Under the pieces are notes generated by a model. The model made no database searches, was not told the DNA's origin, and saw nothing but the letters and a program-made list of their open reading frames with translations. This document shows, in pieces, positions 40,072 to 53,755 of a stretch of 64,000 bases of DNA. This DNA is from Candidatus Electrothrix communis. GTDB taxonomy: Bacteria > Desulfobacterota > Desulfobulbia > Desulfobulbales > Desulfobulbaceae. The stretch covers positions 3,363,501-3,427,500 of the forward strand of contig CP130629.1 of NCBI GenBank assembly GCA_030644725.1, read 5' to 3'. A program made the translations under genes and the position numbers. Positions within the stretch are counted from its first letter, which is position 1. Each line of letters opens with the position of its first letter.

Positions 40072-41106
40072 TCAGTCCGCTGCTCCTGCAAGCGGAATAT
40101 CCCTTATCGCCGGATAACAGTTCAGTATATTTTTGAGCCGTTTTTTTCCGTAGAGCATGGGTTCGATAGATCCCCGGCAGCTTGTCCAGCAGCCGGAGCA
40201 CTCGGACCGTTCAAACTGCCAAAGCAGATTTCTTTGTATTGCAGCTACCTCATCAGTAAAAATATTTCCGGCAATATCATCCAGGCAGTCGATACAGCGC
40301 GTGACATTCCCCTGGCTGTCGATGTTACAAAGATTTTTCCCCGCATAACACGGTTTGATGCCGTCATGTGCCGCAGCTTCGGAGAATTTCTCCAGATATC
40401 CGGGGAGAGAGACGAATTCAGGATATCTTTTCCATAATGCGGTCAGATGTTCGCTGATGCTGTTCTCGGCTGAGACTCTGTTCTCTTTGTTCCCTCGGCC
40501 GTTGCTGTACAACGTGACAAGGTAGGTCACGCCGATTTCGTTTGCCAGCTGAATCAACGCTTCAATATCGTCAATATTATCGTCCATAACCACGGATATC
40601 ATGTGGACTCTTTGATGGGGGCTGATGCGCTGCTCATTGAGCATCCTCAATGCATCCACAGCCCGTGCAAAAGCGCCTTCAACCCCTCTCTGTCTGTCAT
40701 GTCTGTCGGGATCAATATAATCCACGGAAATACTGACTTCATACATCCCGGCCTGCCAGAGTTCCCGTGCTTTTTCCGGGGTCATGAACCAGCCGTTGCA
40801 GATCATAACCGGGAAGTTGTCCTTTGCCAAAACGCGCACGATTTCCGGCAGCTCGGCATGCAGCAGGGGTTCTCCGCCGCTGATTGAAATAACCTGCGGA
40901 CCGAAATATTTTATTTTTTCAGCAATAATTTTGACCTGATCAAGGCTGAGACTCGGATAGCTCCTATGCGGTTCTTTCCAGAAATCACAGATAGTGCAGG
41001 TGAAATTACAATGGTAGAGAATCTGGAGATTCAGATGAACTAGGTCTTTTTTGAAGAAAGAGAAGAAGTATTTGGATTTTTTAGCTATATCGTGATGAAA
41101 GGGCAT
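40072..41106 (-). CDS. Radical-SAM/SPASM protein
   Basis: 344 residues. The [4Fe-4S] site for SAM cleavage is C33-x3-C37-x2-C40 in YHCNFTCTICDFW, followed by the SAM-binding SISGGEPLL. The C-terminal part (CYAGKNLCNIDSQGNVTRCIDC...CSGCWTSCRG) is a SPASM-like domain for auxiliary clusters. Such enzymes abstract a hydrogen from peptide, sugar or lipid substrates; the substrate here is unknown. Last gene of the minus-strand operon, 12 bases after the preceding radical-SAM gene. Confidence 0.85.
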   Translation of the reverse strand: MPFHHDIAKKSKYFFSFFKKDLVHLNLQILYHCNFTCTICDFWKEPHRSYPSLSLDQVKIIAEKIKYFGPQVISISGGEPLLHAELPEIVRVLAKDNFPVMICNGWFMTPEKARELWQAGMYEVSISVDYIDPDRHDRQRGVEGAFARAVDALRMLNEQRISPHQRVHMISVVMDDNIDDIEALIQLANEIGVTYLVTLYSNGRGNKENRVSAENSISEHLTALWKRYPEFVSLPGYLEKFSEAAAHDGIKPCYAGKNLCNIDSQGNVTRCIDCLDDIAGNIFTDEVAAIQRNLLWQFERSECSGCWTSCRGSIEPMLYGKKRLKNILNCYPAIRDIPLAGAAD

Positions 41107-41118
41107 GTTTTCAGTTTT

Positions 41119-42483
41119 TCATTTTTGAAAAAATACATTCTGCGCACACATGGGCACAAGCCGGTCACCTGTCTGCGGATAGGGATTGCAGCATTTTTGC
41201 AGTCGGGCAAAATCCATTGTATGCACATCCATAAAATTATGGATAAAGACGGCCTTCATATTTGCAATACCGAGGTTCAGTTTCTCTTTGCGGGAAAGTC
41301 CCTGAGTTGATATGAGCCGCAAAATATCTTTGACCCGCTCAAGCACCTTCTCGTTGGAAGCACTGTAATCCGCTGCCGACCAGAGATCATAGATCCTGTT
41401 TTTTATGAGGTCGTATCCCTCGCTGTCCAGACCGGGCAAGGTTTTATTGGCAATGATGTTCAGAAAATCTTCTTTGCCCAGGAATTTTTTCAGACTGTAG
41501 ACCTCGCCGTCCTCAAGGGTGAAATAGTAGGACAGGGCAAAACAGGAGAAATGGGAGCAGGGCAGGGGGTTGAAGTCGCCCTTGTCGGCAAAGGCGGATT
41601 GCTCAATATGATGGACAATATCAGCCACTGTGAGCCTGTGCCGCTGTTCATCAATCGCTGCTGCATTTCCTGTGAAGACAAGCGGCTGAAACATCAGGGT
41701 GAGCGCCTTTGAGCGGAAAAAGAAGTCGCTGATCGCCTCGATCTCATCGTCATTCACCCCTTTTGCCGCAGCAGCAACCAGCGAGTAGGGCAGCTCCTCC
41801 TTTTCAAAAAGTTCAATCAGTTCCAGTTTTTTTGCAGACAGATCAGCTCCTCGTAAAAATATATACGTGCTGCTTTGAAACCCGTCAAACTGGAGTGCCG
41901 CCACTACTCCCTTTTCTTTGAAAAACCGTCTGAGTTCAGCATCCTTCAGCAGCGTCAGGCCGTTGGTGGAGACAGAGATCTGGGTGATGCCCTTTTCAAG
42001 CGCAATCTCGATGAGTTCTTTAAACTGCGGGTGCAGGGTGGGTTCGCCTCCTGAGATATTAATCACATCCACACAACCTTCAGTTCGGATGAGGTTGTCG
42101 ATAATGCCTGTAAACTCTTCCGCAGTTAGAGCGAAAGGTGCAGCAAATCGCTTCATGCAGATGGGGCATTGCATATCACAATGGGAAAGGATCTCGATCA
42201 CCGGCAGGCAGACATGCTGCTGATGCTCCGGGCAATACCCGCAGGAATCCGGGCAGTCGGTAAACTCGGTAATATTTCGCATGAGCGGCTGCTGTCCCGG
42301 CTTGATATAGTGCTGGCTCTCTTCATACCACGCCACATCTGAGGAGACCAAGGCCTTGGTTGCGCCGTGTTCCGGGCACATTTTTTCAAGATAGATTGCC
42401 CCATCCCGTTCAATAATTCGTGCAGCAACCTTTTGTGTGCAGATTGAGCAGAGTCCTGTGGTGTGCGAATAGATTTTAGCCAT
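41119..42483 (-). CDS. MJ0619/tetraether-synthase-like radical-SAM enzyme A
   Basis: 454 residues. Cysteines come in the order typical of MJ0619/Tes-type enzymes: an N-terminal CSIC and a later Cys in EKMCPEHG, a second set in CPDSCGYC, and then the radical-SAM motif CDMQCPIC followed by INISGGEPTLHP. The C-terminus ends with CCNPYPQTGDRLVPMCAQN. Archaeal Tes joins two lipid tails by radical carbon-carbon coupling, so chain coupling or functionalisation of an unactivated acyl carbon is plausible. The ATG at 42483 overlaps the acyltransferase stop by eight bases; a TTG further up is less likely. Confidence 0.8.
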   Translation of the reverse strand: MAKIYSHTTGLCSICTQKVAARIIERDGAIYLEKMCPEHGATKALVSSDVAWYEESQHYIKPGQQPLMRNITEFTDCPDSCGYCPEHQQHVCLPVIEILSHCDMQCPICMKRFAAPFALTAEEFTGIIDNLIRTEGCVDVINISGGEPTLHPQFKELIEIALEKGITQISVSTNGLTLLKDAELRRFFKEKGVVAALQFDGFQSSTYIFLRGADLSAKKLELIELFEKEELPYSLVAAAAKGVNDDEIEAISDFFFRSKALTLMFQPLVFTGNAAAIDEQRHRLTVADIVHHIEQSAFADKGDFNPLPCSHFSCFALSYYFTLEDGEVYSLKKFLGKEDFLNIIANKTLPGLDSEGYDLIKNRIYDLWSAADYSASNEKVLERVKDILRLISTQGLSRKEKLNLGIANMKAVFIHNFMDVHTMDFARLQKCCNPYPQTGDRLVPMCAQNVFFQK

Positions 42484-43045
42484 GTTTTTTCTCAATATTT
42501 CGTGAGACAACCTTGTTTATCGGGACGGTAACATCTTTGCCTATACTGACACCTCTACGGAGAGTTGCAAAGCCGCCGACAACGGTTCCTTCACCGATCA
42601 TGACTCGGCCAAGAGTATAGGTCGCATCCGAGAATTCATGGGTGAATATCCGTGCGCCGTGGCCGAGGACGACGTAATCCTCTATTTCTATAAGATGAGG
42701 AAAATGCACATCAATCACAACATCGGAGGAGATAAACACGCCTTTGCCGATCTTCACCCCGATGACCCGGTAGATAAGGCATTTAATAGGTGAATAGTCT
42801 GTGAAGTAGGCGATTCTGGAGAAGAAATATCTGAGGTAAAACCGTTGTTTCTGCCAACCAGGAAAAATAACGCTGTATATATACTTAATCCGCTCACTCA
42901 GGGGACATTCAACTGCAAAGGAGAATTTCTGTTCATTGCCTTGCATGAATTCCTCCAGAGCATCTCGGCTTTTTTGGATCTCCTCTATATGCTCTGGATT
43001 CTTCACAGCCTTACTCCTCTCCAGATTCCTTCCAGAATCTTTCAT
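42476..43045 (-). CDS. Hexapeptide-repeat acyltransferase
   Basis: 189 residues with a left-handed beta-helix in the C-terminal two-thirds: the isoleucine-rich hexads KGVFISSDVVIDVHFPHLIEIEDYVVLGHGARIFTHEF and RVMIGEGTVVGGFATLRRGVSIGKDVTV. The catalytic His of this family probably lies in HGARIFTHEF. Members transfer acetyl or acyl groups to sugars, amines or alcohols, so it may acylate the pathway product. Its start overlaps the end of the upstream radical-SAM gene by 35 bases and its stop overlaps the next gene, indicating tight coupling. Confidence 0.8.
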   Translation of the reverse strand: MKDSGRNLERSKAVKNPEHIEEIQKSRDALEEFMQGNEQKFSFAVECPLSERIKYIYSVIFPGWQKQRFYLRYFFSRIAYFTDYSPIKCLIYRVIGVKIGKGVFISSDVVIDVHFPHLIEIEDYVVLGHGARIFTHEFSDATYTLGRVMIGEGTVVGGFATLRRGVSIGKDVTVPINKVVSRNIEKKHG

Positions 43046-44429
43046 CCTGCTGCCGGTAGAAAAGATTATAGGAACAGGCAGGGATCATTTTACCTGACTC
43101 ATCCGGGACAAGGTCGCCGCAGCGCGAGACCCGGTCGATATCAAAATTATCTTCATCCATATGCGGATGGATAGAGATCATTCTGGTCATTTTTTCTATT
43201 GTTTCTCTGCGCTGTTGAGGTGTTGCTGTTCCGTCGGCCGGGTATAATTCCCGCACTGTTTTTTTCAGCGTCATGATCACCTCTTCATCCTCGCCTTCAG
43301 CCCAAAGCCTGTTCAGTCCTGCAAGGAAATCCCTTGAAAAGTTTGCGTCCGGCTCTAAAAGATACGATCCAACGGAACCGGTTGTCAGAAAATCTTTTCC
43401 GAGGATTTTGGTCAGTGGTATAAGCCGGTCCTGCACAAAGACGTAATAGGCCACAGAATAGCAGAGCGGATGATACGAGCCCAGGGGGAAAAAATCATCC
43501 TGAGAAAATTCATCTTTCTGTGCAAGCAGTTCCTCGACTTCGTCGATGGTGATATGTTCTCTGGGCTGGAAGCGGCTGCCGTTCAGACCGGTATAGGTCA
43601 TATTTTGTATGGTGATGCTTTTCACAAAGTCCTTTTTGATATACTTAGCTGTAATCTCGGCCACCTCCTCCTCATTGACCCCTTTGATACAGACCAGTAG
43701 CAGGGTGGTGGGGATTTCAAGCTGTTCAAGGACCTCCAGGGCCTTTTTCTTTTGAGCAATAATATCTTTTCCGTAAATGGCGATGCTGTTCTCAGCCGAG
43801 AGGGTATCCATGGAAAGCACCGGCTGAACCCCTGCCTCCTTGAGCTGCTGGGCAAAGGCCCTGTCCGTTGCTATGCGTAAGCCGTTGGTGTTCACGGTGA
43901 TGCGCTCGATTCCCTCTTCCCGGCACACCGCGATCAGATCAAAAAGCCCCGGATGCAGGGAGGGTTCCCCGCCGGTCATGTTGATCAGCTGGACGTTCGG
44001 CTGCTGCTCTTGAATATGGCGGATTATTGTCCGTGTTTCCTCAACAGTTTTATAGTATTTTTTATCGGGTCTGTTATAGGTAAAGCATTTAGGACAGTTG
44101 AGGTTACAGTCGTTGGTGATGGAAAATACCGGCAGGTGCAGCCCTGTTGAGTGCCACTCGCAGACACCGCAGTCAAAGGGGCAGCCGCGACGGCTCTTTT
44201 TTCTGTGAGGAATTTCTTCGATCTGCATGGGTTTGCCGACCCGCTCCATGTACCAGGAAAAACTTGCCGCAATCCTGGTGCGCACCGCGCCGGTTTCCTT
44301 GCAGATCCTTTCCAGAAACACCCCGTTCCGGGCCGCTACAACCCGTGCCGTCTCAACTTTTCCGCATCTGGAACACCAGGCCCTAGTCGCATGGATGAAG
44401 GTAGATCCCTGGTGCGCGATCCTGTTCAT
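43011..44429 (-). CDS. MJ0619/tetraether-synthase-like radical-SAM enzyme B
   Basis: 472 residues, paralogue of the 41119 enzyme with the same cysteine plan: C19-x2-C22 and C43, then CPFDCGVC (83-90), the radical-SAM motif CNLNCPKC (108-115) and INMTGGEPSLHP. The C-terminus has the matching RVSRCGDLVPDESGKMIPACSYN. Having two such enzymes in one operon with an acyl carrier protein suggests two successive radical steps on an acyl chain. The start codon region overlaps the SDR stop by four bases (ATGA). Confidence 0.82.
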   Translation of the reverse strand: MNRIAHQGSTFIHATRAWCSRCGKVETARVVAARNGVFLERICKETGAVRTRIAASFSWYMERVGKPMQIEEIPHRKKSRRGCPFDCGVCEWHSTGLHLPVFSITNDCNLNCPKCFTYNRPDKKYYKTVEETRTIIRHIQEQQPNVQLINMTGGEPSLHPGLFDLIAVCREEGIERITVNTNGLRIATDRAFAQQLKEAGVQPVLSMDTLSAENSIAIYGKDIIAQKKKALEVLEQLEIPTTLLLVCIKGVNEEEVAEITAKYIKKDFVKSITIQNMTYTGLNGSRFQPREHITIDEVEELLAQKDEFSQDDFFPLGSYHPLCYSVAYYVFVQDRLIPLTKILGKDFLTTGSVGSYLLEPDANFSRDFLAGLNRLWAEGEDEEVIMTLKKTVRELYPADGTATPQQRRETIEKMTRMISIHPHMDEDNFDIDRVSRCGDLVPDESGKMIPACSYNLFYRQQDERFWKESGEE

Positions 44430-45148
44430 ATCCCGCCGTCCACCGTGATATTCTGCCCGTTGATATAAGAGGATCTGTCCGAGGCGAGAAAGCAGACAAG
44501 CTCGGCAACATCTTGATCGGTTCCGGCTCTTCCCCGTGTGTTATGTCGAACAAAATCAGCACGAAGATCATCAGGAATCCCCTTGGCGACGCCAGCTTCC
44601 ATCATGCCCGGCTGGACTGTGTTGACTCTGATATCAAAGCGTTTCAGTTCAGCGGCAAGGGCATGGGTCATGCCCGGCAGGGCCGCCTTGGTCATGGCGT
44701 AGGTCAGCGGCACATCCAAGATCCTCTGCCCGGCAATGGAGCCGATGTTGACAATCGCGCCGTGTTTGTTGCGGATCATGCCGCGCACCACGGCCTTAGT
44801 GACAAAGATGGTGCCCTTGATGTTGATATTGAGCACAAGATCCACATCCTCTTCTTCAAGCATGGCAAAGGGCATAATCTGGCTTATCGCGGCATTATTG
44901 ACCAGGGTGTCTATGACAGGCTCCTCTTTGTAGAGCGCCTCAATCTTTGCTGTTATATCCTGCACGTTGTTCAGGTTCATCTGCATGGCCTTTGCCCCCG
45001 GCAGCTCCTTGACAAGGGCCTCGGCCTTTTCCGCATTACGGTTATAGGTAAAGATGACCTTTGCGCCGTATTCCGCCGCTCTTCTGCATATTCCCCTGCC
45101 GAGATAACCTGTTCCGCCGGTGATAAAAACGGTTTTTCCTTTAAGCAT
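44426..45148 (-). CDS. SDR-family reductase (FabG-like)
   Basis: 240-residue Rossmann enzyme. NAD(P)-binding TGGTGYLGRGI at the N-terminus, NNAAISQ, the catalytic Ser in NIGSIAGQR and Tyr-x3-Lys in PLTYAMTKAALPGMT. This matches 3-oxoacyl-ACP reductases, which reduce beta-ketoacyl-ACP to beta-hydroxyacyl-ACP; immediate overlap with the ACP gene (eight bases) supports an ACP-bound substrate. Another SDR alcohol dehydrogenase activity is possible. Confidence 0.85.
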   Translation of the reverse strand: MLKGKTVFITGGTGYLGRGICRRAAEYGAKVIFTYNRNAEKAEALVKELPGAKAMQMNLNNVQDITAKIEALYKEEPVIDTLVNNAAISQIMPFAMLEEEDVDLVLNINIKGTIFVTKAVVRGMIRNKHGAIVNIGSIAGQRILDVPLTYAMTKAALPGMTHALAAELKRFDIRVNTVQPGMMEAGVAKGIPDDLRADFVRHNTRGRAGTDQDVAELVCFLASDRSSYINGQNITVDGGI

Positions 45149-45527
45149 GATCAGCGGCCTCAGTCTTTTTCATGTCGATTATCCGGGCGAGGTCGCCCAC
45201 TGTAATTGCCGAGAACAGTTCGATCTTGGTCATGTCCTCTTTGTACCTTTCAGCTGCGTCAGGAAGCTGTTTCCTGATCAGGGCTTCCCCCTCTTTGGAG
45301 AGCCTACCGTCTATCAGAAGATCTTCCGAGCTGATACCGGCGGCAATCATCTCGTCGGTTTTCAGGATCACCCCGAATTTTTGTTCAATCTCATAGATCA
45401 TCTCGACAAAATCAATACTGTCCGCCCCCAGATCTTTGATAAGCGAGTGGTTTTCATGCACCTCGTCAACAGAATCGAGTCCGAGCACAGGGAGTAGTAT
45501 TTCACGTAGGATGTCGATTGTACTCAT
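45141..45527 (-). CDS. Acyl carrier protein, long form (128 aa)
   Basis: Carries a phosphopantetheine attachment serine, S37 in KDLGADSIDFVEMIYEIEQ. The protein is longer than housekeeping ACP (about 80 residues): an insert of roughly 35 residues (about 72-110, LSKEGEALIRKQLPDAAERYKED) separates helix III from the usual end. This dedicated carrier is probably the platform for the enzymes of the operon. It overlaps the SDR gene and starts four bases after the nitroreductase stop. Confidence 0.88.
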   Translation of the reverse strand: MSTIDILREILLPVLGLDSVDEVHENHSLIKDLGADSIDFVEMIYEIEQKFGVILKTDEMIAAGISSEDLLIDGRLSKEGEALIRKQLPDAAERYKEDMTKIELFSAITVGDLARIIDMKKTEAADHA

Positions 45528-45530
45528 TGA

Positions 45531-46112
45531 TTACCTCTCATACCCGGCAGGAATAACAGCCCCGATGGACCTGCCCGGTTGTATCTTTAACAGGGGGATA
45601 ATGTCTTGTTCAGCTATCAGCGGGCCGGTCATGTAGCATGTTTGTATATCGAGACTTTCAGCGGCAAGCAATATAAGGGTGGCAACAGCGGAGATGGATT
45701 TTGTGTAGGCGTCGCGTTCCCATTCAGCAATTGTATTATCCGGATCCTCCATCATGAACGAGACAGACTTGGATACGCGGAAAATCGGAATAAAGAGTAC
45801 CGGTGCCTGTTCAAAGAAGGTGAAGTTTTTTGTATACTGTAGGAATCCTTCCCGGAAATCCTCCCTGAACTGTTCCGCATGGGCTGTGATCCAGCTCCGG
45901 GTTGCCTCGGCAATCTTTCGGATGGTCTCCTTATCCTGAACCACCAGAATATCCCAGCGTTTCCTCCCTGAGGCAAAGGGAGAGGTCTTTGCAATAGCAA
46001 GGATTTTTTCTATATCGTCATCAGCAACCGGCCTGTCGGAATAGCTTCTGGTGCTTCTTCTTGTTTCTGCGATTTCTTTTAATATGCTGTATCTGCTCAT
46101 ATTCAATCTCAC
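45531..46112 (-). CDS. Nitroreductase-family flavoprotein
   Basis: 193 residues. The N-terminal ETRRSTRSYSDRPV is the FMN-phosphate-binding signature of the nitroreductase family, and AVATLILLAAESLDIQTCYMTGP is the typical central helix and strand. Despite the name, these proteins act in many pathways as enoyl or alkene reductases, dehydrogenases or azoline oxidases, so oxidation or reduction of the acyl intermediate is likely. Its start overlaps the ketosynthase remnant by four bases. Confidence 0.82.
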   Translation of the reverse strand: MRLNMSRYSILKEIAETRRSTRSYSDRPVADDDIEKILAIAKTSPFASGRKRWDILVVQDKETIRKIAEATRSWITAHAEQFREDFREGFLQYTKNFTFFEQAPVLFIPIFRVSKSVSFMMEDPDNTIAEWERDAYTKSISAVATLILLAAESLDIQTCYMTGPLIAEQDIIPLLKIQPGRSIGAVIPAGYER

Positions 46113-46918
46113 TCATATCTTTTCAGGACAAAGGCCGTGTTCTGGCCGCCGAAGGCCGAATTCAGCTTCAGCACATACCTGACAACCCGTAACGGCACCT
46201 CTGGATCAGGGGTGGTGAAGTTACAGGTGGGCAGCAACTGCTGCTCCTGAAGGGAATAAATAACCCCGAGCATCTCCATTGCCCCGCAGGCCCCGATGAG
46301 ATGGCCGATATGGCCTTTGAGGGAAAACACCGGGATTTCCTTGAACCGTTGCCCGAAGATAACCTCCAGAGCCCTTGCTTCGGAAAGGGCGTTTTTCAAG
46401 GTGCCTGTACCGTGAAGATGAACACAGTCGATATCCTGCGGCGAGATTTTAGCCTGTTCAATCGCCTCTAGGGCAGCTTGAGCTAAATATTTTCCTTCAG
46501 GATGCGGTTCCGTCACGCGAGTCGTACCCGCCGGTAATAATCCGCTCCTTCCCACCGTCCCGAATCAATCTGAAGGCAAGTCCCATAGTCCCATGGCCTG
46601 GGTGGAAGCGACGCAGGCGGAAACGTTGGTGCTGTGTCCCCCCCTGATTCTGTATTTTTCCGCAAGCTGATCTATGGATGCATTGGCATGGGGACAGTAT
46701 GCCTGCCATTTCCCCTGCCCGGAGTCATCACTGCCGATATAGCTCACAAGGTCGAAATAATCGATCCCGGTTCCCACATGCATGGCCATTTTTTCCGGAT
46801 CAATTGTCCTGCCCTGTATCAGCTCGGCAACAGCGGTTCTGATGAACAGGTCTTTCCTGTCCACAGCCCGATTTTCCTGGTCGTTCCCGGAGCCCCCGGA
46901 AGCCTCGGCGGTCACTTC
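46109..46918 (-). pseudogene. Broken beta-ketoacyl synthase (KAS I/II type)
   Basis: Remains of a condensing enzyme. The active-site Cys is in STNVSACVASTQAMGL and the two catalytic His are in VHLHGTGTLKN and SLKGHIGHLIGACG, but they are in different frames. The first break is a tandem duplication of ATGGGACT near 46590; removing one copy restores AMGLAFRLIRDGGKERIITGGYDS. After that, about 80 residues expected before VTEPHPEGKYL are missing, with another frame change. The first ~60 residues of the enzyme are also absent, replaced by a membrane-protein remnant. The gene cannot make an active enzyme. Confidence 0.78.
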
Positions 46919-47191
46919 CTGACCGATGAAAAGAAGACCTGAGAAAAAGGCAAACAGGGCCACGGCCTGATGCAGGAAGTTCCTGTTGAGTACCTTATGT
47001 TTTCTGCGGAGAAGGATAAAGGCGAGCATGAGCAGATTCTGCACAGTAAAGGAAACCTCGACAAAATCAAATCGGCCTTCCTGCCATGTACGGTAGCCGC
47101 TCCATACGCAGTATCCGGCAATATTGAGGAATATATAGATATTCAGGAGCAGTTACCAGTTGTTCCGAGCGAATTCCTTGAGTTTCTTCAA
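46919..47191 (-). pseudogene. Remnant of a membrane protein, fused to the ketosynthase remnant
   Basis: A perfect AAGGAGG site precedes a TTG that opens MKKLKEFARNNW and then hits TAA; the same frame continues as LLLNIYIFLNIAGYCVW...NLLMLAFILLRRKHKVLNR, two or three membrane helices. It runs without stop into the ketosynthase fragment. The LLRRKHK... pattern recalls the N-terminal half of isoprenylcysteine-methyltransferase-like proteins, which is a weak guess. Confidence 0.55.
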
Positions 47192-47257: not shown

Positions 47258-47488
47258 TCAGAGCATCTTTTTGGCGTCATCCAGGTACTTCTTGATGGCG
47301 ATAATATCGTCAGCGGTTACCTGGAAGGCATAATTACATCCACTGCATTTTATGTGGCTGTCCGGGCTCAGCTCCTCTGACGGGATCTTTGTTGCCGTTG
47401 AACAATTGCCGCATGATATGACGAGAGCTGCGTTGGCATCATCATCTATTTCAAAGTCAATTTTTGGTTTTGCAGTCTCATTTTCCAT
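47258..47488 (-). CDS. Small zinc-ribbon protein (76 aa)
   Basis: Two CxxC-type knuckles, CGNC and CSGC, separated by about 20 residues form a probable zinc ribbon; the flanks are acidic (KIDFEIDDDANAA) and helical (DIIAIKKYLDDAKKML). AAGG precedes the ATG. It lies between the REC-TIR gene and the decayed start of the radical-SAM operon, on the same strand as both. Function unknown; it could be a regulator or a chaperone for the adjacent operon. Confidence 0.65.
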   Translation of the reverse strand: MENETAKPKIDFEIDDDANAALVISCGNCSTATKIPSEELSPDSHIKCSGCNYAFQVTADDIIAIKKYLDDAKKML

Positions 47489-47531: not shown

Positions 47532-48392
47532 TTAATTTACCGATGTTAAAATCTTTTTCATGGAAAATATAAGAGAGCGAATTTGATCAGCTCTGTTATT
47601 TGCAGAGGTGATATCTACACAATGCATGGAACTAATTTGGCGAGGGACCTCGTGTGGTTTTACATTATACAAAATAGGAATAATAAAAAACCTGTTTCCA
47701 TCGCGTTTTTTCTTGTTAAAAGCTTGGATAATTTCTTGCTTCATATAATCAGATTGCAGGGTGTCATGGGTGAACATCAAAATAAATATTTTGCACGTAT
47801 TGATCGCTTCTGTCAGGACAGGACGCCATATATCATCTGCTAACAACTCTGCGTTTTCACAGCATGATCCTATATTGTTTTTCATTAATTCATTGCTGAA
47901 AAACGAAGCTAATTTTTCATTTACTGATAAAGAGCTTATAAAGACAGCTCTCTCTTGCACTTTGATTTTTGCCAGTGGCATATTGTTGTATTTTGGGATA
48001 TTTCGAGCAATATTGATATGTCTTTTTACTGAAGACATGAAAATTTCTTCGGAAAAAGGTTTAAGCAGGTAGCTGTCAGCGCCTTTCGAGTAAAATTCTG
48101 CGAATTCATCAGACGATAAACGGCCTGACATGACGATCACTTGCGTTCGCTTTCTTTCCTTTGTTAAAAAATCCAGCAGCTCAATACTCTCGTCCTTCGT
48201 ACCATCCTGTAAGTAGATGTCGAGTAACACAAGATCTACTTCCCGTCCTTGAAAGGGAAAGGCATCCATGGCTTGTTTCGCTTCTTCCGCAGAAGTGAAA
48301 AAGTGGACATCAAAAAGCTTTGGGTCAAAAAGCTTTCCAATAATTTTGTGCATGAATTTACTGTCATCAACTGCAACGACTACATATTTCAT
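47532..48392 (-). CDS. Response-regulator receiver fused to a TIR domain (REC-TIR)
   Basis: 286 residues. The receiver (3-125) is complete: acidic pair D9-D10, phospho-acceptor D58 in LVLLDIYL, switch Ser in VMSGR and K111 in LLKPF. From about 147 follows a TIR fold: RAVFISSLSVNEKLASFF, DDIWRPVLTEAINTCKIFILMF, then E220 in SDYMKQE, at the position of the NADase catalytic Glu, and FFIIPILYNVKP. TIR effectors cleave NAD+ or bind partners; a phosphorylation-gated TIR would be unusual. The start at 48392 has GAGG upstream; an in-frame TTG or ATG upstream extension has none. No cognate kinase is adjacent. Confidence 0.75.
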   Translation of the reverse strand: MKYVVVAVDDSKFMHKIIGKLFDPKLFDVHFFTSAEEAKQAMDAFPFQGREVDLVLLDIYLQDGTKDESIELLDFLTKERKRTQVIVMSGRLSSDEFAEFYSKGADSYLLKPFSEEIFMSSVKRHINIARNIPKYNNMPLAKIKVQERAVFISSLSVNEKLASFFSNELMKNNIGSCCENAELLADDIWRPVLTEAINTCKIFILMFTHDTLQSDYMKQEIIQAFNKKKRDGNRFFIIPILYNVKPHEVPRQISSMHCVDITSANNRADQIRSLIFSMKKILTSVN

Positions 48393-48880
48393 TGACGCCT
48401 CACTGTTATGGATTCCCGTGAGCATACGTTTCGGATGTTTCCGATAGCTTTTAAAGAAATTGAGTGCCTTGCGCATCTATTGGTCTTCAAAGACTAAAAT
48501 GCTGGGCCTGAAAAGTAAACAGGAAATATTGCTTATGGTGGAAAAAAGGGGGGATGTTGAGGGGAAAGAAAGAAAAGTGCGGCTATGACTTTCTTTTTTT
48601 TCAGCTTAAAGCCTTATATTTCGTTGTTGTTTCTTGCCATCTGGCTTGGATAAATGGATGATCATTTTGAACTTGCAACTAATCAATATTATGCCTTTTT
48701 CATAGAGTAAAAACAGATGCGCACTGACGGACTTTTTAGAGCAGGCTCCCAGAGTTAACCATACAGAAAGAACAAACCACGCGGTTTTCCCTTGAAATAC
48801 CCGAGCACATGAGCTAGGAAAGTGCAGGTTCCTGTTTCAGGAACAGGAATCCTTCCTCTCGGCAGCAGGAACATGCATTC
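48393..48880. other. Divergent intergenic region
   Basis: About 490 bases between the REC-TIR gene and the ABC transporter. No gene seen. The only clear element is the hairpin at 48828-48844; promoters for both directions presumably lie here but none is close to consensus. Confidence 0.4.
48828..48844. promoter_or_regulatory. Palindrome upstream of the ABC operon
   Basis: GTTCCTG-TTT-CAGGAAC, a perfect 7-base inverted repeat, followed by a partial third CAGGAA. It lies 36 bases before the ABC gene start and may be an operator. Confidence 0.35.
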
Positions 48881-49654
48881 ATGAAGATAAGCGCAGAAAA
48901 AAAGCTCGACAGCCCGGCCCTCCTGGCCCGCTGCTTATGCAAGCAGTATAAAGGAGCTGCATCCCCGGCTTTGCACGATTTTAACCTGGAAGTAGGCAAA
49001 GGAGAGTTCTTCGGCCTGCTCGGTCCCAACGGGGCTGGGAAAACAACCGCCCTGTCCATTTTCAGCGGTCTCTTCCCCCCGGACAGCGGCACCCTCCAGA
49101 TTGCAGGTAAACAATTTTGCAAGCAGGCCAAGGCGATTAAACAGATTTTCGGCCTTGTGCCTCAGGAAATCGCCTTGTATGATAACCTGACCGCGCAGGA
49201 GCATCTGATCTTTTTCGGCAAATTGCACGGCCTGAGCAGGGAACGACTGCGTAAGCGGGTTACCAGCTGTCTGGAAATTGCCGGATTGGTTGACCGGGCC
49301 TCCCGGCTAGTGAGTACCTATTCCGGCGGCATGAAACGACGCCTGAACATTGCGGCGGCCCTGCTCCATGAACCGCAGATCCTTTTTCTTGATGAACCCA
49401 CTGTCGGTGTTGACGCCCAATCACGCAATATGATCCATGAGCAGTTGCAAGAGGCCAACCAAGGCGGAACAACGATTATCTACACCAGTCATTCTATGGA
49501 CGAGGCCCAAAAACTCTGCACCCGCATCGGCATTATCGAGCAGGGAAGTATTGTCAGGCAAGGTGTACCTGCAAGCCTAATTGCGGAGAGCGGCCTCAAT
49601 AATCTGGAAGAGCTCTTCCTCCATCTCACGGGCAGGCAGCTTCGGGACGCATGA
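48881..49654 (+). CDS. ABC transporter ATP-binding protein
   Basis: 257 residues with Walker A GPNGAGKTT (about 49), Q loop LVPQEIAL, signature YSGGMKRRL and Walker B ILFLDEPTVGVD, then the switch His in TSHSMDEA. It matches the ABC-2 (CcmA/DrrA-type) exporter subfamily, which drives lipid, antibiotic or polysaccharide export. Its stop overlaps the permease start by four bases. It is the first gene of a plus-strand operon that continues with an ACP, a radical-SAM enzyme and a KAS III, so it probably exports their product. Confidence 0.88.
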   Translation: MKISAEKKLDSPALLARCLCKQYKGAASPALHDFNLEVGKGEFFGLLGPNGAGKTTALSIFSGLFPPDSGTLQIAGKQFCKQAKAIKQIFGLVPQEIALYDNLTAQEHLIFFGKLHGLSRERLRKRVTSCLEIAGLVDRASRLVSTYSGGMKRRLNIAAALLHEPQILFLDEPTVGVDAQSRNMIHEQLQEANQGGTTIIYTSHSMDEAQKLCTRIGIIEQGSIVRQGVPASLIAESGLNNLEELFLHLTGRQLRDA

Positions 49655-50940
49655 TGTTGAAGCTCTTTGCCGCTGTTATCAAGGAACTCCTGCTGCTCAA
49701 GCGGGATCGGGCAGGTCTGGCAGTCCTCTTTCTCATGCCGGTTATCCTGGTGGTGGCGATTACCCTGGTGCAGAAAAACGTCATGGAACTGACCGGGCAG
49801 AGCAAGACCCGGCTGCTTATGGCGGATCTGGACGGAGGCAGCCTCGGCAAGACCTTGTCTGATTCGTTAGAGGAGGGTCATATTGAGATTATCCGGCGCA
49901 ATGACGAAAAAACAGATCTGGAGGATATCCGAGCCGCAGTCCTCGACGGTGATTTTCAGGTCGGTATCGTGATTCCTGCTGGTTCTTCAGAGCGACTGCA
50001 TAAGGAAGCTGTCGCCATATTTACCGAGAGCGGGCAGGATGCCCCGGAGGTCAAGCCTGCTCAGATCCCGATTGCTCTTTTTTTTGATCCTGCTGTTATG
50101 CCCGGTTTTCGGACCGGCCTGACAGCCCAGCTGCGTATGTCCCTGGAAAGGGTAGCCATGCAGGCCAAGGTAGAGCAGCTGCAAAGGAAAATGGACGAGC
50201 AGTCCAGTATCATGCTCCCTTGGCCCGGCTCATCCCGGTTTTCAGGAGAGCGTATTGCAACCGTCTTTGATCAATCCCTGTTTAAGCTCAACAGCCCGGC
50301 CTCCTCAGAAGAAGGCACTGATGCTTCGGAATATAATCCGGTGCAGCAAAATGTCCCGGCCTGGGCCTTATTCGGCATTTTTTTTACAGCCATCCCCATT
50401 GCAGGCGGGCTCTTACAAGAGCGGCGAAGCGGTATCCAGCTTCGTTTGACCACTCTGCCGGTTTCTCCTTTTCTTCTCCTCACAGCTAAGGTTCTGGCCT
50501 ATCTTGCGGTTTGCTGCTGTCAGTTTTTCCTGATCACCCTGATCGGGGCCCACCTTTTTCCCTTGCTCGATCTTCCAGCCTTTTCTCTTGGTCAGGATGT
50601 CTTGTCCGTCGTCGCAGTTGTCCTGTTGACTGGCCTAGCCGCCTGCGGTTACGGTATCTTGCTCGGAACCGCCTGCCGAACCTATGAGCAGGCCTCCACC
50701 TTGGGATCAACCACGATTGTGGCAGCAGCAGCCATCGGCGGGGTGATGGTGCCGGTGTACGCCATGCCTCAGATCATGCAGCGGATCAGCATTATCTCTC
50801 CTTTAAACTGGGGCCTGACAGCCTTTCATGATATATTATTACGGGGAGATTCGCTGGACATGGTGCTGGATGATCTGCTCCGTTTAGGATGCTTTTTTCT
50901 TTTGAGCGTCCTGTTGGCCTGGAAATTGACCCGTCCCTGA
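49651..50940 (+). CDS. ABC-2 type transporter permease
   Basis: 429 residues. One N-terminal helix (AGLAVLFLMPVILVVAITLVQ, about 22-42) is followed by a large extracytoplasmic domain (about 45-235) and five C-terminal helices beginning with VPAWALFGIFFTAIPIAGGLLQERRSG. This is the ABC-2 membrane layout of YhhJ/DrrB-type exporters. Coupled by overlap to the ATPase gene. Followed after 68 bases by the ACP gene. The substrate is unknown. Confidence 0.85.
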   Translation: MMLKLFAAVIKELLLLKRDRAGLAVLFLMPVILVVAITLVQKNVMELTGQSKTRLLMADLDGGSLGKTLSDSLEEGHIEIIRRNDEKTDLEDIRAAVLDGDFQVGIVIPAGSSERLHKEAVAIFTESGQDAPEVKPAQIPIALFFDPAVMPGFRTGLTAQLRMSLERVAMQAKVEQLQRKMDEQSSIMLPWPGSSRFSGERIATVFDQSLFKLNSPASSEEGTDASEYNPVQQNVPAWALFGIFFTAIPIAGGLLQERRSGIQLRLTTLPVSPFLLLTAKVLAYLAVCCCQFFLITLIGAHLFPLLDLPAFSLGQDVLSVVAVVLLTGLAACGYGILLGTACRTYEQASTLGSTTIVAAAAIGGVMVPVYAMPQIMQRISIISPLNWGLTAFHDILLRGDSLDMVLDDLLRLGCFFLLSVLLAWKLTRP

Positions 50941-51008
50941 GCTTATATTTGGGCCTGTATGTGAAGCCCATCCTTGGCAAGGGACTTATTTTAACGGTAT
51001 AGTGAAGT

Positions 51009-51305
51009 ATGATAACTGATGCTTTTGAAAAAGAACTGCTTGATCTGATTTGCAGGACCTGCAAGCTTGATGATATTGACCCGAACACGGTTGCCAGCAC
51101 CGATCCTCTGATCGGGCCGGAGTCACCTCTGGGCATTGATTCCATTGATGCCCTTGAAATCGCGGTGACCGTGCAACAAGAATACGGGGTGCGGATGGAT
51201 TCGGAAAATACCAGCAGGACAGTCCTTGAATCCTTGGTCACGCTGGCAGACTATATCCGGCAAAACGACGGAGTAGGCCGCACAACAGCTGTCTTGGAGA
51301 GTTAA
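51009..51305 (+). CDS. Acyl carrier protein 2 (98 aa)
   Basis: The phosphopantetheine serine is S45 in PLGIDSIDALEIAV. Four-helix ACP pattern; different from and only distantly similar to the 45141 carrier. The last base of its stop is the first base of the next gene's ATG, so it is coupled to the B12 radical-SAM enzyme, which probably acts on its cargo. A possible earlier role in fatty-acid synthesis is unlikely, since no fab genes other than the KAS III are adjacent. Confidence 0.85.
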   Translation: MITDAFEKELLDLICRTCKLDDIDPNTVASTDPLIGPESPLGIDSIDALEIAVTVQQEYGVRMDSENTSRTVLESLVTLADYIRQNDGVGRTTAVLES

Positions 51306-52609
51306 TGAATATTTTGCTTATTAACCCGCCTAATTGTGGGAGGAGTATTCCAGAAGAGCGCTATGGGATCACCTCCATTAAACAGATTTTTAGGGGGGAG
51401 CCCCTTGCCCTGGAGGAGTTGGCAGGGAACCTGCCAGAGTACGATGTTCGGATTTTGGACCTGAAGGTGGACCCGGATGGTTTAGAGCCAATGCTGACAG
51501 ATTTCAGGCCTGATTTGGTCGGGATCACCGGGTTGACCTGCGAGGCAAACACCATGCTCGCTCTTGCCGGGCAGGTTAAGGAGCATGGGCAGCCGCTGGT
51601 GGTTGTGGGTGGGATCCACGCGAGTAATGATCCGGCTTTTTTTAATCAGGCGAGTGTTGATTATATCATTATCGGTTTGGGCAAGAAGACCTTTGCCGAG
51701 CTTATCGCCTATCTGATCCGTGTGGAACAGGCTGTCAGTCCCGGTGTCATCCCCGGTGTTATTCCCACCAATCCCGGCGGGGCAATCCAGGTCCCGACCC
51801 GACGCTGCACAGCTGCTGATATTGTGGAGGAGAGACCGCCAGCCTATGATAAGGTGCAGCAGTACCGTTCCTCTTATATTTTGGAAAAGCTCAAGGTCAC
51901 GATGGGCTTTGTTGCCTCGGCCTACGGTTGTCCCCATCGCTGTTCCTTCTGCTCCATCAAGGGCCAGACCAATGGCAGCTACCTGACCAAATCCATTGAT
52001 GCGGTCTTGCGGGAAATCCGACTCCTCCCCGATATCCCGGTTATCCGCCTGGTGGATGCCAATACCTTTGGTGATATTGATCGGGCCAAGGCCCTGGCTG
52101 AGGCTTTGAAAGCCTCCAATCTGGGGAAACAGTATCTTGCTGATATCCGCTCCGACACCGTTGTTCGTTACCCGGAGCTGCTGAAGAGCTGGAAAGAGGC
52201 CGGTCTGCGCGCCGTGGTCATCGGCTTTGAGGAGACTGATGATCAGCGATTGACAGCCATGAACAAGGCCAATCAGGCGAACATCAATACCCAGGCTGTT
52301 ACTGTGCTCAATGAGCTGGGCATCACCGTGGTCGGTGATTTTATCATTGACCCCCAGTACGAGGAGCAGGATTTTCTCCGTCTTGACGAGTATCTCGGGA
52401 AGGTCCAGATTGATTTGCCCATGATCACGGTGATGACCCCTCTGCCAGGCACAGAGCTCTATGAACAGCAGCAGGATCGAATCACCAACCATGATCTTGA
52501 TTATTACACTTTGACCAATGCCGTCACTGAGACGCGGCTTGCGGAAAAGAAATTTTATACACTTTATGCGGCGCTTATCCGAAAAAGTCATGAACATGCG
52601 AAGATATAA
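51305..52609 (+). CDS. B12-binding-domain radical-SAM enzyme
   Basis: 434 residues. N-terminal cobalamin-binding Rossmann domain (1-140; LLINPPNCG, LVVVGGIHASNDP), then the radical-SAM core with C209-x3-C213-x2-C216 in YGCPHRCSFCSIKG. This BchE/HpnR-type class catalyses methylations, cyclisations and ring oxidations on lipids, tetrapyrroles and polyketides. Its place between an ACP and a KAS III gene suggests it methylates or rearranges an ACP-bound acyl chain. It does not carry the D-x-H-x2-G ligand motif, as is usual in this class. Confidence 0.85.
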   Translation: MNILLINPPNCGRSIPEERYGITSIKQIFRGEPLALEELAGNLPEYDVRILDLKVDPDGLEPMLTDFRPDLVGITGLTCEANTMLALAGQVKEHGQPLVVVGGIHASNDPAFFNQASVDYIIIGLGKKTFAELIAYLIRVEQAVSPGVIPGVIPTNPGGAIQVPTRRCTAADIVEERPPAYDKVQQYRSSYILEKLKVTMGFVASAYGCPHRCSFCSIKGQTNGSYLTKSIDAVLREIRLLPDIPVIRLVDANTFGDIDRAKALAEALKASNLGKQYLADIRSDTVVRYPELLKSWKEAGLRAVVIGFEETDDQRLTAMNKANQANINTQAVTVLNELGITVVGDFIIDPQYEEQDFLRLDEYLGKVQIDLPMITVMTPLPGTELYEQQQDRITNHDLDYYTLTNAVTETRLAEKKFYTLYAALIRKSHEHAKI

Positions 52610-52612
52610 AGG

Positions 52613-53755
52613 ATGAATGCGTTTATAACAGCGATTTCTGTCTTTCTGCCCGGTGAGCCAGTGGGAAATGATGCCCTGGACGAGTATCTGGGAAAGACAG
52701 ACAGAATATCAGCCAGAACCCGACAGATGATCCTTGCTGGCAACGGTATTCAAACCAGATATTATGGCATTGATCCGGCAACAGGAAAAACCAGTTTTAC
52801 CAATGCCTGCATGGCAGCAGAGGCTGTGCGTGGTTTAGGGCTTAAGGATAACGAACAACGACTGGAGTGCCTTTGCTGCGGCACTTCTTCAGCGGATCAA
52901 CTTCTTCCCGGCCATGCCTCAATGGTGCATGGTGAGCTGGGAGGTGAATCCTGTGAGGTTATCTCTACCAATGGAATTTGCCTCAGTGGTATTACTGCGA
53001 TGAAGCATGCTGTCATGTCAGTAGCTCTTGGAATGACGAAGAATGCAGTTGCTACGGGTTCCGAGCTGGCCTCTACCTTTATGCGGCAGGATTTTTTTAC
53101 TGCCACGTCTGGGAAAAAGAAAAAAGAGGAAGCAGGAGCACATCATTCAGCCTTTTCTTTTGAGGCTGAGTTTCTTCGTTGGATGCTTTCTGATGGAGCA
53201 GGGGCTATGCTCATCGAACCCAAACCAGTCCCTGATAAACTGAATCTTCAAGTCAACTGGATCAAGCTCACTTCGCATGCTCATCAGCTGGAGACCTGTA
53301 TGTACGCCGGTGCGCTTAAACAGGAGGACGGGAGTCTTGTAGGCTGGCGTGATTGCCTCCGGGCAGGTCATCAGGAAGGCGTTTTTACCGTCAAACAGGA
53401 TGCCCGGCTACTGAATAGTGAAATTATTAGAATTATAGTTGAGGAAAGTCTTCCGTTGGTGCTTGAACAATACGCTCTCAAACCGGAAAATATTGACTGG
53501 TTCCTACCTCACTACTCTTCGGAGTTTTTTCGAAAGCCGCTTATGGAGAAGTTTCGCGAAACAGGTTTTCCTTTACCAGAGGAAAAATGGTTTACCAATC
53601 TTCGCACCAAGGGTAATACCGGATCAGCCTCATTTTATATTATGTTGGAGGAACTCTTTTCTTCTGGAAAATTACGGAAAGGGGATCGTATTTTAGGGAT
53701 GATCCCAGAGAGCGGTAGGTTCTCTGTGGGTTGGATGTTGCTGACAGTGGTGTGA
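52613..53755 (+). CDS. Beta-ketoacyl-ACP synthase III-like enzyme
   Basis: 380 residues of the thiolase fold. The catalytic triad Cys-His-Asn is complete: C123 in STNGICLSGITAM, H300 in WFLPHYSSEF and N335 in TKGNTGSASFY. It therefore differs from the broken ketosynthase of the opposite operon and could be the condensing enzyme of the whole pathway. KAS III enzymes couple an acyl-CoA or acyl-ACP to malonyl-ACP; secondary-metabolite members (e.g. dialkylresorcinol type) take unusual acyl donors. It starts four bases after the B12 radical-SAM stop. Confidence 0.85.
   Translation: MNAFITAISVFLPGEPVGNDALDEYLGKTDRISARTRQMILAGNGIQTRYYGIDPATGKTSFTNACMAAEAVRGLGLKDNEQRLECLCCGTSSADQLLPGHASMVHGELGGESCEVISTNGICLSGITAMKHAVMSVALGMTKNAVATGSELASTFMRQDFFTATSGKKKKEEAGAHHSAFSFEAEFLRWMLSDGAGAMLIEPKPVPDKLNLQVNWIKLTSHAHQLETCMYAGALKQEDGSLVGWRDCLRAGHQEGVFTVKQDARLLNSEIIRIIVEESLPLVLEQYALKPENIDWFLPHYSSEFFRKPLMEKFRETGFPLPEEKWFTNLRTKGNTGSASFYIMLEELFSSGKLRKGDRILGMIPESGRFSVGWMLLTVV

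Follow-up and report, generated by a model that had tools for sequence, protein, structure and literature searches.

Two radical-SAM proteins of the tetraether synthase superfamily encoded beside an acyl carrier protein in Candidatus Electrothrix communis, with a possible role on carrier-bound chains

What do two radical-SAM proteins that resemble the archaeal tetraether synthase, Tes, do in a bacterial operon with its own acyl carrier protein (ACP)? The operon lies in a window (the whole stretch of DNA analysed, 64,000 nucleotides; contig CP130629.1, positions 3,363,501 to 3,427,500) from Candidatus Electrothrix communis. The ORF listing of the window has seven open minus-strand ORFs tightly packed between 40072 and 46112, adjacent ones overlapping by 4 to 35 bases or separated by spacers of 3 or 12 bases. 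All seven were assigned to gene families with Pfam and NCBIfam, in agreement with an earlier note on this DNA that had described seven intact, overlapping or nearly overlapping genes. They are given here in order of transcription, followed by two remnants and a divergent block:

45531..46112 (-), NTR, nitroreductase-family flavoprotein, 193 aa (Pfam)
45141..45527 (-), ACP, 128 aa (Pfam PF00550)
44426..45148 (-), KR2, FabG-like SDR ketoreductase (Pfam/NCBIfam)
43011..44429 (-), Tes1, radical-SAM protein of the Tes/TrsS superfamily (PDB match, fold and tree)
42476..43045 (-), AT, hexapeptide-repeat acyltransferase (Pfam/NCBIfam)
41119..42510 (-), Tes2, like Tes1 a radical-SAM member of the Tes/TrsS superfamily; N-terminal rubredoxin-like ribbon, TTG start
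40072..41106 (-), rSAM3, a further radical-SAM protein of 344 aa that resembles SPASM-type models of NCBIfam
46112..46930 (-), damaged ketosynthase that covers residues from about 60 to 181, then 255-398
46910..47191 (-), what is left of a membrane protein of PEMT/ICMT-like type: some 90 residues from the N-terminus, with one in-frame stop
48881..53755 (+), divergent neighbour block of ABC ATPase, ABC-2 permease, second ACP, HpnR-like B12 radical-SAM protein and DarB/StlD-like ketosynthase

The ACP exceeds an ordinary ACP in length and contains a PP-binding domain (PF00550, 41 bits against a cut-off of 20.8), with a phosphopantetheine serine, S37, that is invariant in the 11 aligned sequences. 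The presumed catalytic His136 of the acyltransferase is kept in 18 of 18 sequences, and the C-terminal tail is shorter in the window than in most relatives. A KR2 relative with 45% identity adjoins the Tes pair of another genome (G054). Homologues of the nitroreductase are found at 20, and of rSAM3 (phmmer E <= 1e-40) at 15, of the 39 cluster loci described below, the window counted in both cases. The earlier description of rSAM3 as a SPASM protein holds as a likeness only, since the protein matches several SPASM-type NCBIfam models, all under their cut-offs, and a Pfam search of it returned no SPASM domain.

The interval treated in the earlier note extended to 47191, and the note did not report that 46112-47191 is broken. 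Here, the N-terminal part of a PEMT/ICMT-like protein is joined by a deletion to a damaged ketosynthase that has a frameshift near 46586 and has lost about 73 residues from its interior; the ketosynthase alignment may be extended as far as 46930, and it then overlaps the methyltransferase remnant. An intact member of the PEMT/ICMT-like family was also annotated. CLF, DH and KR1 had no match within the window. With its condensing enzyme broken, the operon is incomplete in this genome. Sequence searches indicate that the divergent plus-strand block is probably not part of the Tes1-Tes2 system: none of the other 38 cluster loci gave a match (E 1e-10) to its permease, ACP or DarB-like ketosynthase, and its ABC ATPase and B12 protein had weak matches (43 to 81 bits) at four and one of the 38, respectively.

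Solved-structure matches and predicted folds assign Tes1 and Tes2 to the Tes superfamily. PDB 7TOL is the best solved-structure match for both (E 2.2e-43 for Tes1, 3.8e-54 for Tes2). The predicted fold of Tes1 aligns with Tes over 431 residues (Z 39.6, rmsd 2.5) and that of Tes2 with 7TOM over 434 residues (Z 47.2, rmsd 3.1); the next fold scores Z below 20 in either case, and the Tes fold with its full domain order spans the whole chain of each protein. Neither protein passes the family models, however. The Tes model NF045702 (cut-off 450 bits) scores Tes2 at 232.9 and Tes1 at 208.7, and the TrsS model NF045646 (cut-off 490 bits), which is the top NCBIfam match for each, scores them at 238.6 and 220.4; two class relatives exceed the TrsS cut-off with 681 bits each. 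Tes1 (38 rows) and Tes2 (33 rows) form clades of their own with SH-aLRT of 100 and 98, and MJ0619 groups with TrsS-like rows outside both, in a quick tree with SH-aLRT as the only support measure, no bootstrap, an undefined root, MJ0619 as a single partial row and bacterial Mss left out. Loci repeating another one, nearly identical rows, matches shorter than 400 residues and rows scoring less than 110 bits were excluded beforehand. Among the rows with the label T2 is L003 (G013, locus L128), a lone gene that lacks a surrounding cluster and lies on a long branch. The comparison of structure and phylogeny proposed in the earlier note thus divided its claim of a Tes-like pair: the fold and the superfamily were confirmed, and the placement of both proteins in the MJ0619/Tes clade, taken in the narrow sense, was not supported.

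The metal sites are conserved. The RS CX3CX2C motif, the Cys3-His site of [4Fe-4S]N and the rubredoxin Cys are kept in 38 of 38 Tes1 and 33 of 33 Tes2 sequences, except that one Tes2 row is gapped at C33; the sites are retained in the window copies, and rubredoxin His36 is variable in Tes1. At the position of the labile Met439, which belongs to [4Fe-4S]C, all 38 Tes1 and all 33 Tes2 sequences have His, as does the pair of genome G625, whereas Met is found in 34 of 35 TrsS-like rows. This His is not an exclusive marker of the system, since L166 and L156, which by score belong to neither group, carry it too. One of the two Tes1 scan patterns spells His at 439, such that Tes1 rows lacking it could be missed. 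Tes2 was never used as a pattern, and the Tes1 rows of G054 and G625 were found without patterns; both have His, and G625 mismatches the pattern at that site.

A further 38 loci, which their record titles assign to about ten phyla, carry Tes1/Tes2, with neighbours mostly alike in kind. All 37 loci of the pattern scan are metagenome-assembled, and phylum names may therefore be wrong in places. In a second phylum search, which covered 198 genomes, the only Tes1 scores over 600 bits came from two genomes that had been found before. Over the 39 loci, Tes1 was called at 37 and Tes2 at 32, and many loci lack one or more cluster genes, partly from contig ends. Some of the missed calls are explained by short contigs and by stretches that overlap; L051 and L079 do hold Tes1-like stretches. 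Neighbours at the 30 loci of at least 12 kb (window excluded) comprise KR at 27, Tes2 at 26, KS at 22, ACP at 21, DH and NTR at 19 each and AT at 16, compared to one KS, one ACP and no KR, NTR, AT or DH at eight control loci of 18-19 kb (seven TrsS-like and one lone Tes2-like gene). Since the HMMs were built from the counted loci themselves, these counts are not independent. G625, which was outside the training, is independent evidence and has rSAM3-ICMT-DH-CLF-KS-KR-NTR-ACP-NifS-Tes1-Tes2 in one run. Tes1 is followed by Tes2 on the same strand, at most 2.7 kb away, at all 30 loci with both called (window included). The distance matrices of the two proteins correlate (r 0.87, 31 loci, 0 of 2000 permutations), which shows co-inheritance, not function. 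A chance neighbourhood is ruled out by orthologues in the same order in other phyla. The survey that the earlier note had suggested thus recovered the same kinds of genes and the Tes1-Tes2 order elsewhere, and its assignment of the genes to one pathway is well founded, because the neighbours are conserved together across loci and in G625.

Full clusters combine one or two ketoreductases, a long ACP, a nitroreductase, an acyltransferase and a third radical-SAM protein with genes that are additional to the intact set of the window: a ketosynthase and a KS-like partner, dehydratases (FabZ plus a FabZ-like protein without the FabZ motif), a PEMT/ICMT-like methyltransferase (12 of 39 loci, window remnant counted) and often NifS, in most cases as a fusion with a rhodanese domain. 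The clusters of L047 (Pelobacter) and L080 look complete or almost complete. The ketosynthase residues Cys-His-Lys-His are invariant in the seven that were aligned. The partner is chain-length-factor-like; inspection by eye of L073 and L021 showed no Cys, and the one partner tested for domains has the N-terminal KS domain alone. A type II KS-CLF set (KS, partner without Cys, KR, DH, ACP) is present in relatives but not in the window, and no enoyl reductase was recognised among the cluster families annotated. One locus, L078, is named Kuenenia but was rejected as evidence from anammox bacteria, as its GC content of 65% (against about 41% for K. stuttgartiensis) suggests that it is misnamed; a family-level search around it covered that genome alone. 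Searches of open-licence literature yielded no description of this gene set or parts of it; the earlier note, too, knew of no described pathway with it. The cluster is widespread and, within the literature searched, undescribed, and its hosts are uncultured and probably anaerobic.

The reading that we favour, at somewhat less than even confidence, is that the seven genes represent the downstream portion, still intact, of a widespread biosynthetic cluster that acts on carrier-bound chains by radical bond formation. A dedicated type II synthase, with an ACP of its own, would extend the chain on that carrier and partly reduce it. Tes1 and Tes2 would then act in turn on the ACP-bound chain, each cleaving SAM and taking hydrogen from an unactivated carbon. 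The carbon radical would be held as a C-S bond on the C-terminal auxiliary [4Fe-4S], as in archaeal Tes, where the available excerpts of PMC9433317 describe a C-S intermediate on [4Fe-4S]C, and a C-C bond would finally be formed, joining two chains or two carbons of a single chain. The His that replaces the labile Met of [4Fe-4S]C may tune this step; as Met439 is reported to be fully conserved in archaeal Tes, the step may also end differently here. The acyltransferase and the methyltransferase would serve in release or capping of the product. We infer both chemistry and product, and several observations count against this reading: archaeal Tes acts on saturated phospholipids rather than on an ACP-bound chain, both proteins fall outside the MJ0619 clade and under the Tes and TrsS cut-offs, many loci lack one or more cluster genes, the window has no CLF, DH or KR1 and only a damaged KS, and none of seven same-genus genomes has a Tes1 match at E 1e-30. 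The proposal that Tes1 and Tes2 constitute a new two-enzyme radical machine, by which unactivated carbons of ACP-held acyl chains are joined or sulfurated to give undescribed cross-linked or sulfur-bridged lipids, must be considered doubtful.

Because the ketosynthase of the window is broken, the pair would either draw its chains from a different synthase in the cell or be a decaying remnant. There is a substantial chance, if well short of even, that the operon is functionless and decaying, the condensing enzyme and the methyltransferase having broken first and the rest not yet. Several lesions in these two genes, the absence of DH, CLF and KR1 from the window and the lack of a Tes1 match at E 1e-30 in all seven same-genus genomes are consistent with decay. 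However, all seven downstream genes are open, the metal sites of Tes1 and Tes2 are retained, and the source genome has ten ketosynthase matches, of which eight remain when the two window fragments are set aside. Relatives are distant, at most 59% identical. A different outcome of the radical chemistry, which we regard as unlikely, is sulfur insertion, in which the C-S intermediate is released to give a thiolated or thioether-bridged acyl-ACP, as by lipoyl synthase, and a NifS-rhodanese protein rebuilds the cluster. In its favour, a NifS-family gene (14 of 39 loci) or a membrane protein family (12 of 39) occurs at 25 of 39 loci, the two together at one locus only. A rhodanese domain was found in 6 of 8 NifS-like proteins and 4 of 4 membrane proteins tested, the desulfurase loop Cys is visible in 10 of 13 NifS-like slices shown, and the NifS-family gene of G625 lies between ACP and Tes1. 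The Met-to-His change also falls on the very cluster that, in the excerpts cited above, carries the C-S intermediate of archaeal Tes. On the other hand, the window has neither gene, and the only match of the source genome to the NifS-rhodanese fusion covers the NifS part alone. Of 11 membrane proteins, six have a length of just 272-332 aa (one of these is truncated where its locus ends) and may have no rhodanese domain, a NifS homologue is also present at two of eight control loci, and sulfur transfer may serve only in iron-sulfur cluster repair.

Tes1 and Tes2 could also perform another radical reaction on the chain, e.g. C-methylation or desaturation, as might be suggested by the methyltransferase-like gene of the clusters and by the former view of MJ0619 as a methylase; this is improbable, as Lloyd et al. 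could not corroborate that view (PMC9433317, available excerpts) and the PEMT/ICMT-like neighbour, a methyltransferase of ordinary type, could itself explain methylation. Synthesis of membrane-spanning lipids from phospholipids, with the ACP genes merely supplying special chains, agrees with the Tes fold and its full domain order, and hundreds of bacterial Tes homologues have been suggested, in the parts available of PMC8941075 and PMC11868695, as makers of branched tetraethers (branched GDGTs), which serve as climate proxies. We nevertheless consider it quite improbable, given the dedicated ACP that adjoins the pair, the separation of both clades from Tes, and the fact that archaeal Tes is one enzyme, not two. 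It is very improbable that the cluster is the ladderane or polyunsaturated-hydrocarbon (PUHC) cluster of Kuenenia and Desulfotalea, in spite of the common style of FASII genes with several radical-SAM proteins and noncanonical ketosynthases (PMC2649909, available part). The source genome has two further clusters (L143, L145) that look more ladderane/PUHC-like, with short radical-SAM proteins that are absent among the 7 of 13 Tes1 matches listed for the genome. The described clusters contain phytoene-desaturase-like genes, the gene table of PMC4790861, as far as available, has no nitroreductase (an oxidoreductase is mentioned in a figure legend of PMC2649909), and the locus named Kuenenia is the likely misnamed L078.

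If the two large bacterial branches work with an assembly line that is ACP-bound, tetraethers could not be deduced from the presence of a Tes homologue in a bacterium. The change from Met to His helps to separate the groups, with the caveat that His is also found in two rows outside them. Should Tes1 and Tes2 make C-C or C-S bonds while the chains are carrier-bound, they would provide a new tool for cross-linking unactivated carbons, and uncultured bacteria of about ten phyla would contain an undescribed class of cross-linked or sulfur-bridged lipids.

The characterised superfamily member that we found is archaeal Tes (GDGT-MAS; MJ0619, 7TOL, 7TOM), with which Tes1 and Tes2 share the whole fold, the domain order and the rubredoxin Cys, [4Fe-4S]N and RS Cys3 sites. 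They differ from it in being two paralogues below the model cut-off, in clades of their own and with ACP and FASII neighbours, in having His for Met439 and, in Tes1, in the loss of Cys456. TrsS (NF045646) is of the same superfamily, but its cut-off of 490 is not reached, and TrsS-like proteins retain Met at 439 and, at the seven control loci, mostly lack FASII neighbours. Ladderane/PUHC clusters (Rattray 2009) share FASII genes, extra ketosynthases, ACP and radical-SAM proteins; the gene set, as far as described, differs, and the source genome seems to have clusters of that type separately. As to orthology with the radical-SAM proteins kuste3342, 3343, 3608 and 2803, TIGR04072 is absent among the 25 matches listed of 48 families for Tes1 and of 35 for Tes2. 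As we understand aryl polyene and other type II KS-CLF systems, they have in common with this cluster a KS and KS-like partner, KR, two DH-like proteins and ACP. The nitroreductase and the Tes pair are extra here, and we know of no radical-SAM pair in aryl polyene clusters. Lipoyl synthase, LipA, attacks unactivated carbons of a carrier-bound acyl chain by radical chemistry with an auxiliary cluster. Tes1 and Tes2 are not of the same family, and sulfur insertion by them would be conjectural, but a similar radical attack on a carrier-bound chain is what we propose for them.

The earlier note described seven intact minus-strand genes that overlap or nearly do so. This holds from 46112 down to 40072, where ORF calling in the window gives seven head-to-tail reading frames joined by overlaps of 4 to 35 bases or gaps of at most 12 bases; the rest of the interval it quoted, 46112-47191, is broken. 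Its family names were matched by Pfam and NCBIfam, except for the SPASM label of the third radical-SAM protein (rSAM3), in which Pfam found no SPASM domain. The region contains:

46112 down to 40072, minus strand: nitroreductase (NTR), ACP (128 residues), SDR ketoreductase (KR), Tes1, hexapeptide acyltransferase (AT), Tes2 and rSAM3
46112-47191: broken genes
47258-47488, minus strand: small ORF of ~76 codons with, by eye, a CxxC...CxxC zinc-ribbon look
47532-48476, minus strand: response-regulator receiver domain joined to a TIR domain
48881-53755, plus strand: divergent operon of ABC ATPase, ABC-2 permease, ACP (PRK09184-like, 62 bits, cut-off 70), B12 radical-SAM protein (HpnR-like, 160 bits, cut-off 650) and ketosynthase (KS; DarB/StlD-like, 520 bits, cut-off 450)

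The small ORF separates the broken genes from the receiver-TIR gene. The divergent operon is a second ACP and radical-SAM module adjoining the cluster and is not common to other cluster loci.

Read against intact relatives, 46112-47191, which the earlier note missed, is a wreck. What is left of a PEMT/ICMT-like membrane protein, some 90 N-terminal residues interrupted by a single in-frame stop, is joined to a KS remnant consisting of residues ~60-181 with a frameshift, a gap of ~73 residues, and residues 255-398. In the relative G625, whose cluster was found without the pattern scan described below, the order is rSAM3, methyltransferase, dehydratase (DH), KS-like partner, KS, KR, NTR, ACP, NifS, Tes1, Tes2. 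The simplest reading would be a single deletion in the window, from inside the methyltransferase gene through DH and partner into KS, with further damage later. The window copy of the cluster is incomplete.

The earlier note took the two central radical-SAM proteins for enzymes like archaeal tetraether synthase (Tes, MJ0619). By fold and best solved match they are: PDB 7TOL is the top structure for both (Tes1, E 2.2e-43; Tes2, E 3.8e-54), with MoaA and others far behind, and the predicted structures (mean pLDDT 89.6 and 86.6) superpose on Tes with Z 39.6 over 431 residues (rmsd 2.5) for Tes1 and Z 47.2 over 434 residues (rmsd 3.1) for Tes2, the next folds having Z <20. By family they stand apart. 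Both score below the NCBIfam cut-offs for TrsS (220 and 239 against 490) and Tes (209 and 233 against 450), as do four Tes1/Tes2 members tested from other loci and a lone Tes2-like gene. The TrsS cut-off is passed by two TrsS-like proteins that were tested. A 107-row tree sets apart the 38 Tes1 rows by one branch (SH-aLRT 100) and the 33 Tes2 rows by another (SH-aLRT 98), and the remaining 35 bacterial rows group with MJ0619 (SH-aLRT 99). Placing the pair outside the Tes clade is thus a fair reading of the tree but not a final one, because MJ0619 is one partial row and the tree is unrooted. The lone Tes2-like gene (L128, G013:C35, 8887-10317) comes from the window's own family and has a long branch; none of the cluster genes occurs within the 19 kb fetched around it.

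That the neighbours travel together is seen in other genomes. An alignment (A1) of the Tes1 proteins of the window and G054, a relative with the pair, was used to scan a genome contig collection of 84,980 species. It gave 37 loci, all metagenome-assembled, which by record titles and tree span Actinomycetota, Thermodesulfobacteriota, Pseudomonadota, Elusimicrobiota, Muiribacteriota, Myxococcota, Riflebacteria, Planctomycetota, Nitrospirota and Aminicenantes; G054 and the window bring the total to 39. Not counting the window, 30 loci reach 12 kb; among these we found KR at 27, Tes2 at 26, KS at 22, ACP at 21, DH and NTR at 19 each, AT at 16, NifS at 12, and rSAM3 and the PEMT/ICMT-like gene at 11 each, counts that partly repeat themselves since the family models were trained on the same loci. 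By contrast, eight control loci of 18-19 kb (seven with a TrsS-like gene and one with a lone Tes2-like gene; the class has 31 genomes with such a match, of which these are only some) had no KR, DH, NTR, AT or rSAM3, one KS, one ACP and two NifS. The G625 locus, outside model training, carries rSAM3, methyltransferase, DH, two KS, KR, NTR, ACP, NifS, Tes1 and Tes2; no AT and no second KR were called at that locus. At all 30 loci with both Tes1 and Tes2 called, window included, Tes1 lies ahead of Tes2 on the same strand and at most 2.7 kb away. The original observation is sound, and it matters more than an oddity of one genome would, since it points out a cluster that crosses phyla and holds two unnamed Tes-superfamily subfamilies.

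The metal sites were compared using the ligand list of Lloyd et al. (PMC9433317). The three rubredoxin cysteines occur in 38/38 Tes1 and 32/33 Tes2 (one gap). The histidine of that site is retained in 30/33 Tes2; in Tes1 the commonest residues are Cys (18), His (10), Gly (5) and Thr (3) of 38, the window having Thr. In the C-terminal auxiliary cluster, Cys338 is present in all Tes1 and Tes2, Cys455 and Cys470 in 37/38 Tes1 and 33/33 Tes2, and Cys456 in 32/33 Tes2 and no Tes1. According to that paper, the substrate carbon of Tes bonds to one of this cluster's sulfurs, and 1000 archaeal homologues all have the labile Met439. Met is found there in MJ0619 and 34/35 TrsS-like rows. The position is His in 33/33 Tes2, which never served as scan pattern, and in 38/38 Tes1, a count biased by the His in the A1 pattern; G054 and G625, whose rows were found without a pattern, also have it. 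His at this position is also seen in two Tes-like proteins (L166 in G338, L156 in G303) of another group, distinct from both Tes1 and Tes2.

The KS of relatives has Cys162, His302, Lys334 and His339 in 7/7; one KS-like partner tested matches the N-terminal KS domain only, and two read by eye have no cysteine at the site. One DH of the cluster is FabZ-like, and 34 dehydratase-family proteins divide into 17 with the FabZ motif, one close variant and 16 without it. The ACP serine is present in 11/11, and 22 clustered ACPs are 126-178 aa long.

Gene set, gene order, fold, metal-site residues and the broken window KS are shown, and from them a tentative scheme may be drawn. A dedicated type II synthase would build a partly unsaturated chain on its own ACP, Tes1 and Tes2 would in turn attack unactivated carbons of the chain, C-C bonds would form via a cluster-bound intermediate, and acyl and methyl transfer would finish the product. 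The chemistry suggested in the earlier note, a putative radical coupling or functionalisation of a carrier-bound acyl chain, is plausible; the whole scheme falls a little short of an even chance. A serious rival, if an unlikely one, is sulfur insertion, that is, carbon-sulfur chemistry instead, in view of the sulfur genes and the carbon-sulfur intermediate of Tes (PMC9433317). A NifS-type protein or a member of a membrane-protein family occurs at 25/39 loci, both together at one. The former, a PLP protein, is a desulfurase of the NifS type with a fused rhodanese domain in 6/8 tested; the membrane family has a rhodanese domain in 4/4 tested, though 6/11 members are short. Other rivals for the chemistry are less probable still. 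Beside the cluster, L072 (13593-17638) and L076 (16177-20170) carry a NifS-like protein, a class III aminotransferase and a radical-SAM protein; in L076 the NifS-like protein is rhodanese-fused and the radical-SAM protein has a SPASM domain.

It is quite possible, if rather less than probable, that in the window's organism the cluster is a decaying remnant, which is compatible with either chemistry. Close to home it is rare. In 57 genomes, the window's own among them, and in 257 class genomes, Tes1 matches above 400 bits came from the window genome and G054 only, and none of seven same-genus genomes had a match at E 1e-30. Among 395 phylum genomes, three exceeded 600 bits with the Tes1 model: the window's, G404 (the genome of locus L073) and G625. 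Sequences from Aminicenantes, Aquicultor and Pelobacter are nearest in the tree to window Tes1 and also to window Tes2. The patchy spread across phyla and the shared nearest relatives point to the pair having been transferred horizontally as one unit, unless the picture is distorted by binning errors. The Tes1 and Tes2 distance matrices agree (r 0.87, 31 loci, 0/2000 permutations), which shows common inheritance, not function. One scan locus, L078, lies on a contig recorded as Candidatus Kuenenia stuttgartiensis, yet has 65% GC, and is probably misnamed or misbinned.

The earlier note knew of no described pathway with this gene set, and our search agrees: among open-licence papers it turned up no text naming the set or a Tes pair with an ACP. 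In the literature, bacterial Tes homologues are candidates for branched tetraethers (PMC8941075; PMC11868695), FASII clusters with radical-SAM genes occur in Kuenenia and Desulfotalea (PMC2649909; PMC4790861; PMC9821293), and antiSMASH 'ladderane' calls extend across many phyla (PMC9902471). The window's genome (G000) has at least two more FASII-radical-SAM clusters:

C1:3246000-3265500 (L143): KS, B12 radical-SAM protein (99 bits against TIGR04072, cut-off 360), short radical-SAM genes, FabZ-like protein, ACP
C1:3572000-3586000 (L145): ACP, fused KS, B12 radical-SAM protein, CrtI-like protein (by eye)

Both look like the ladderane/PUHC type described in Rattray 2009.
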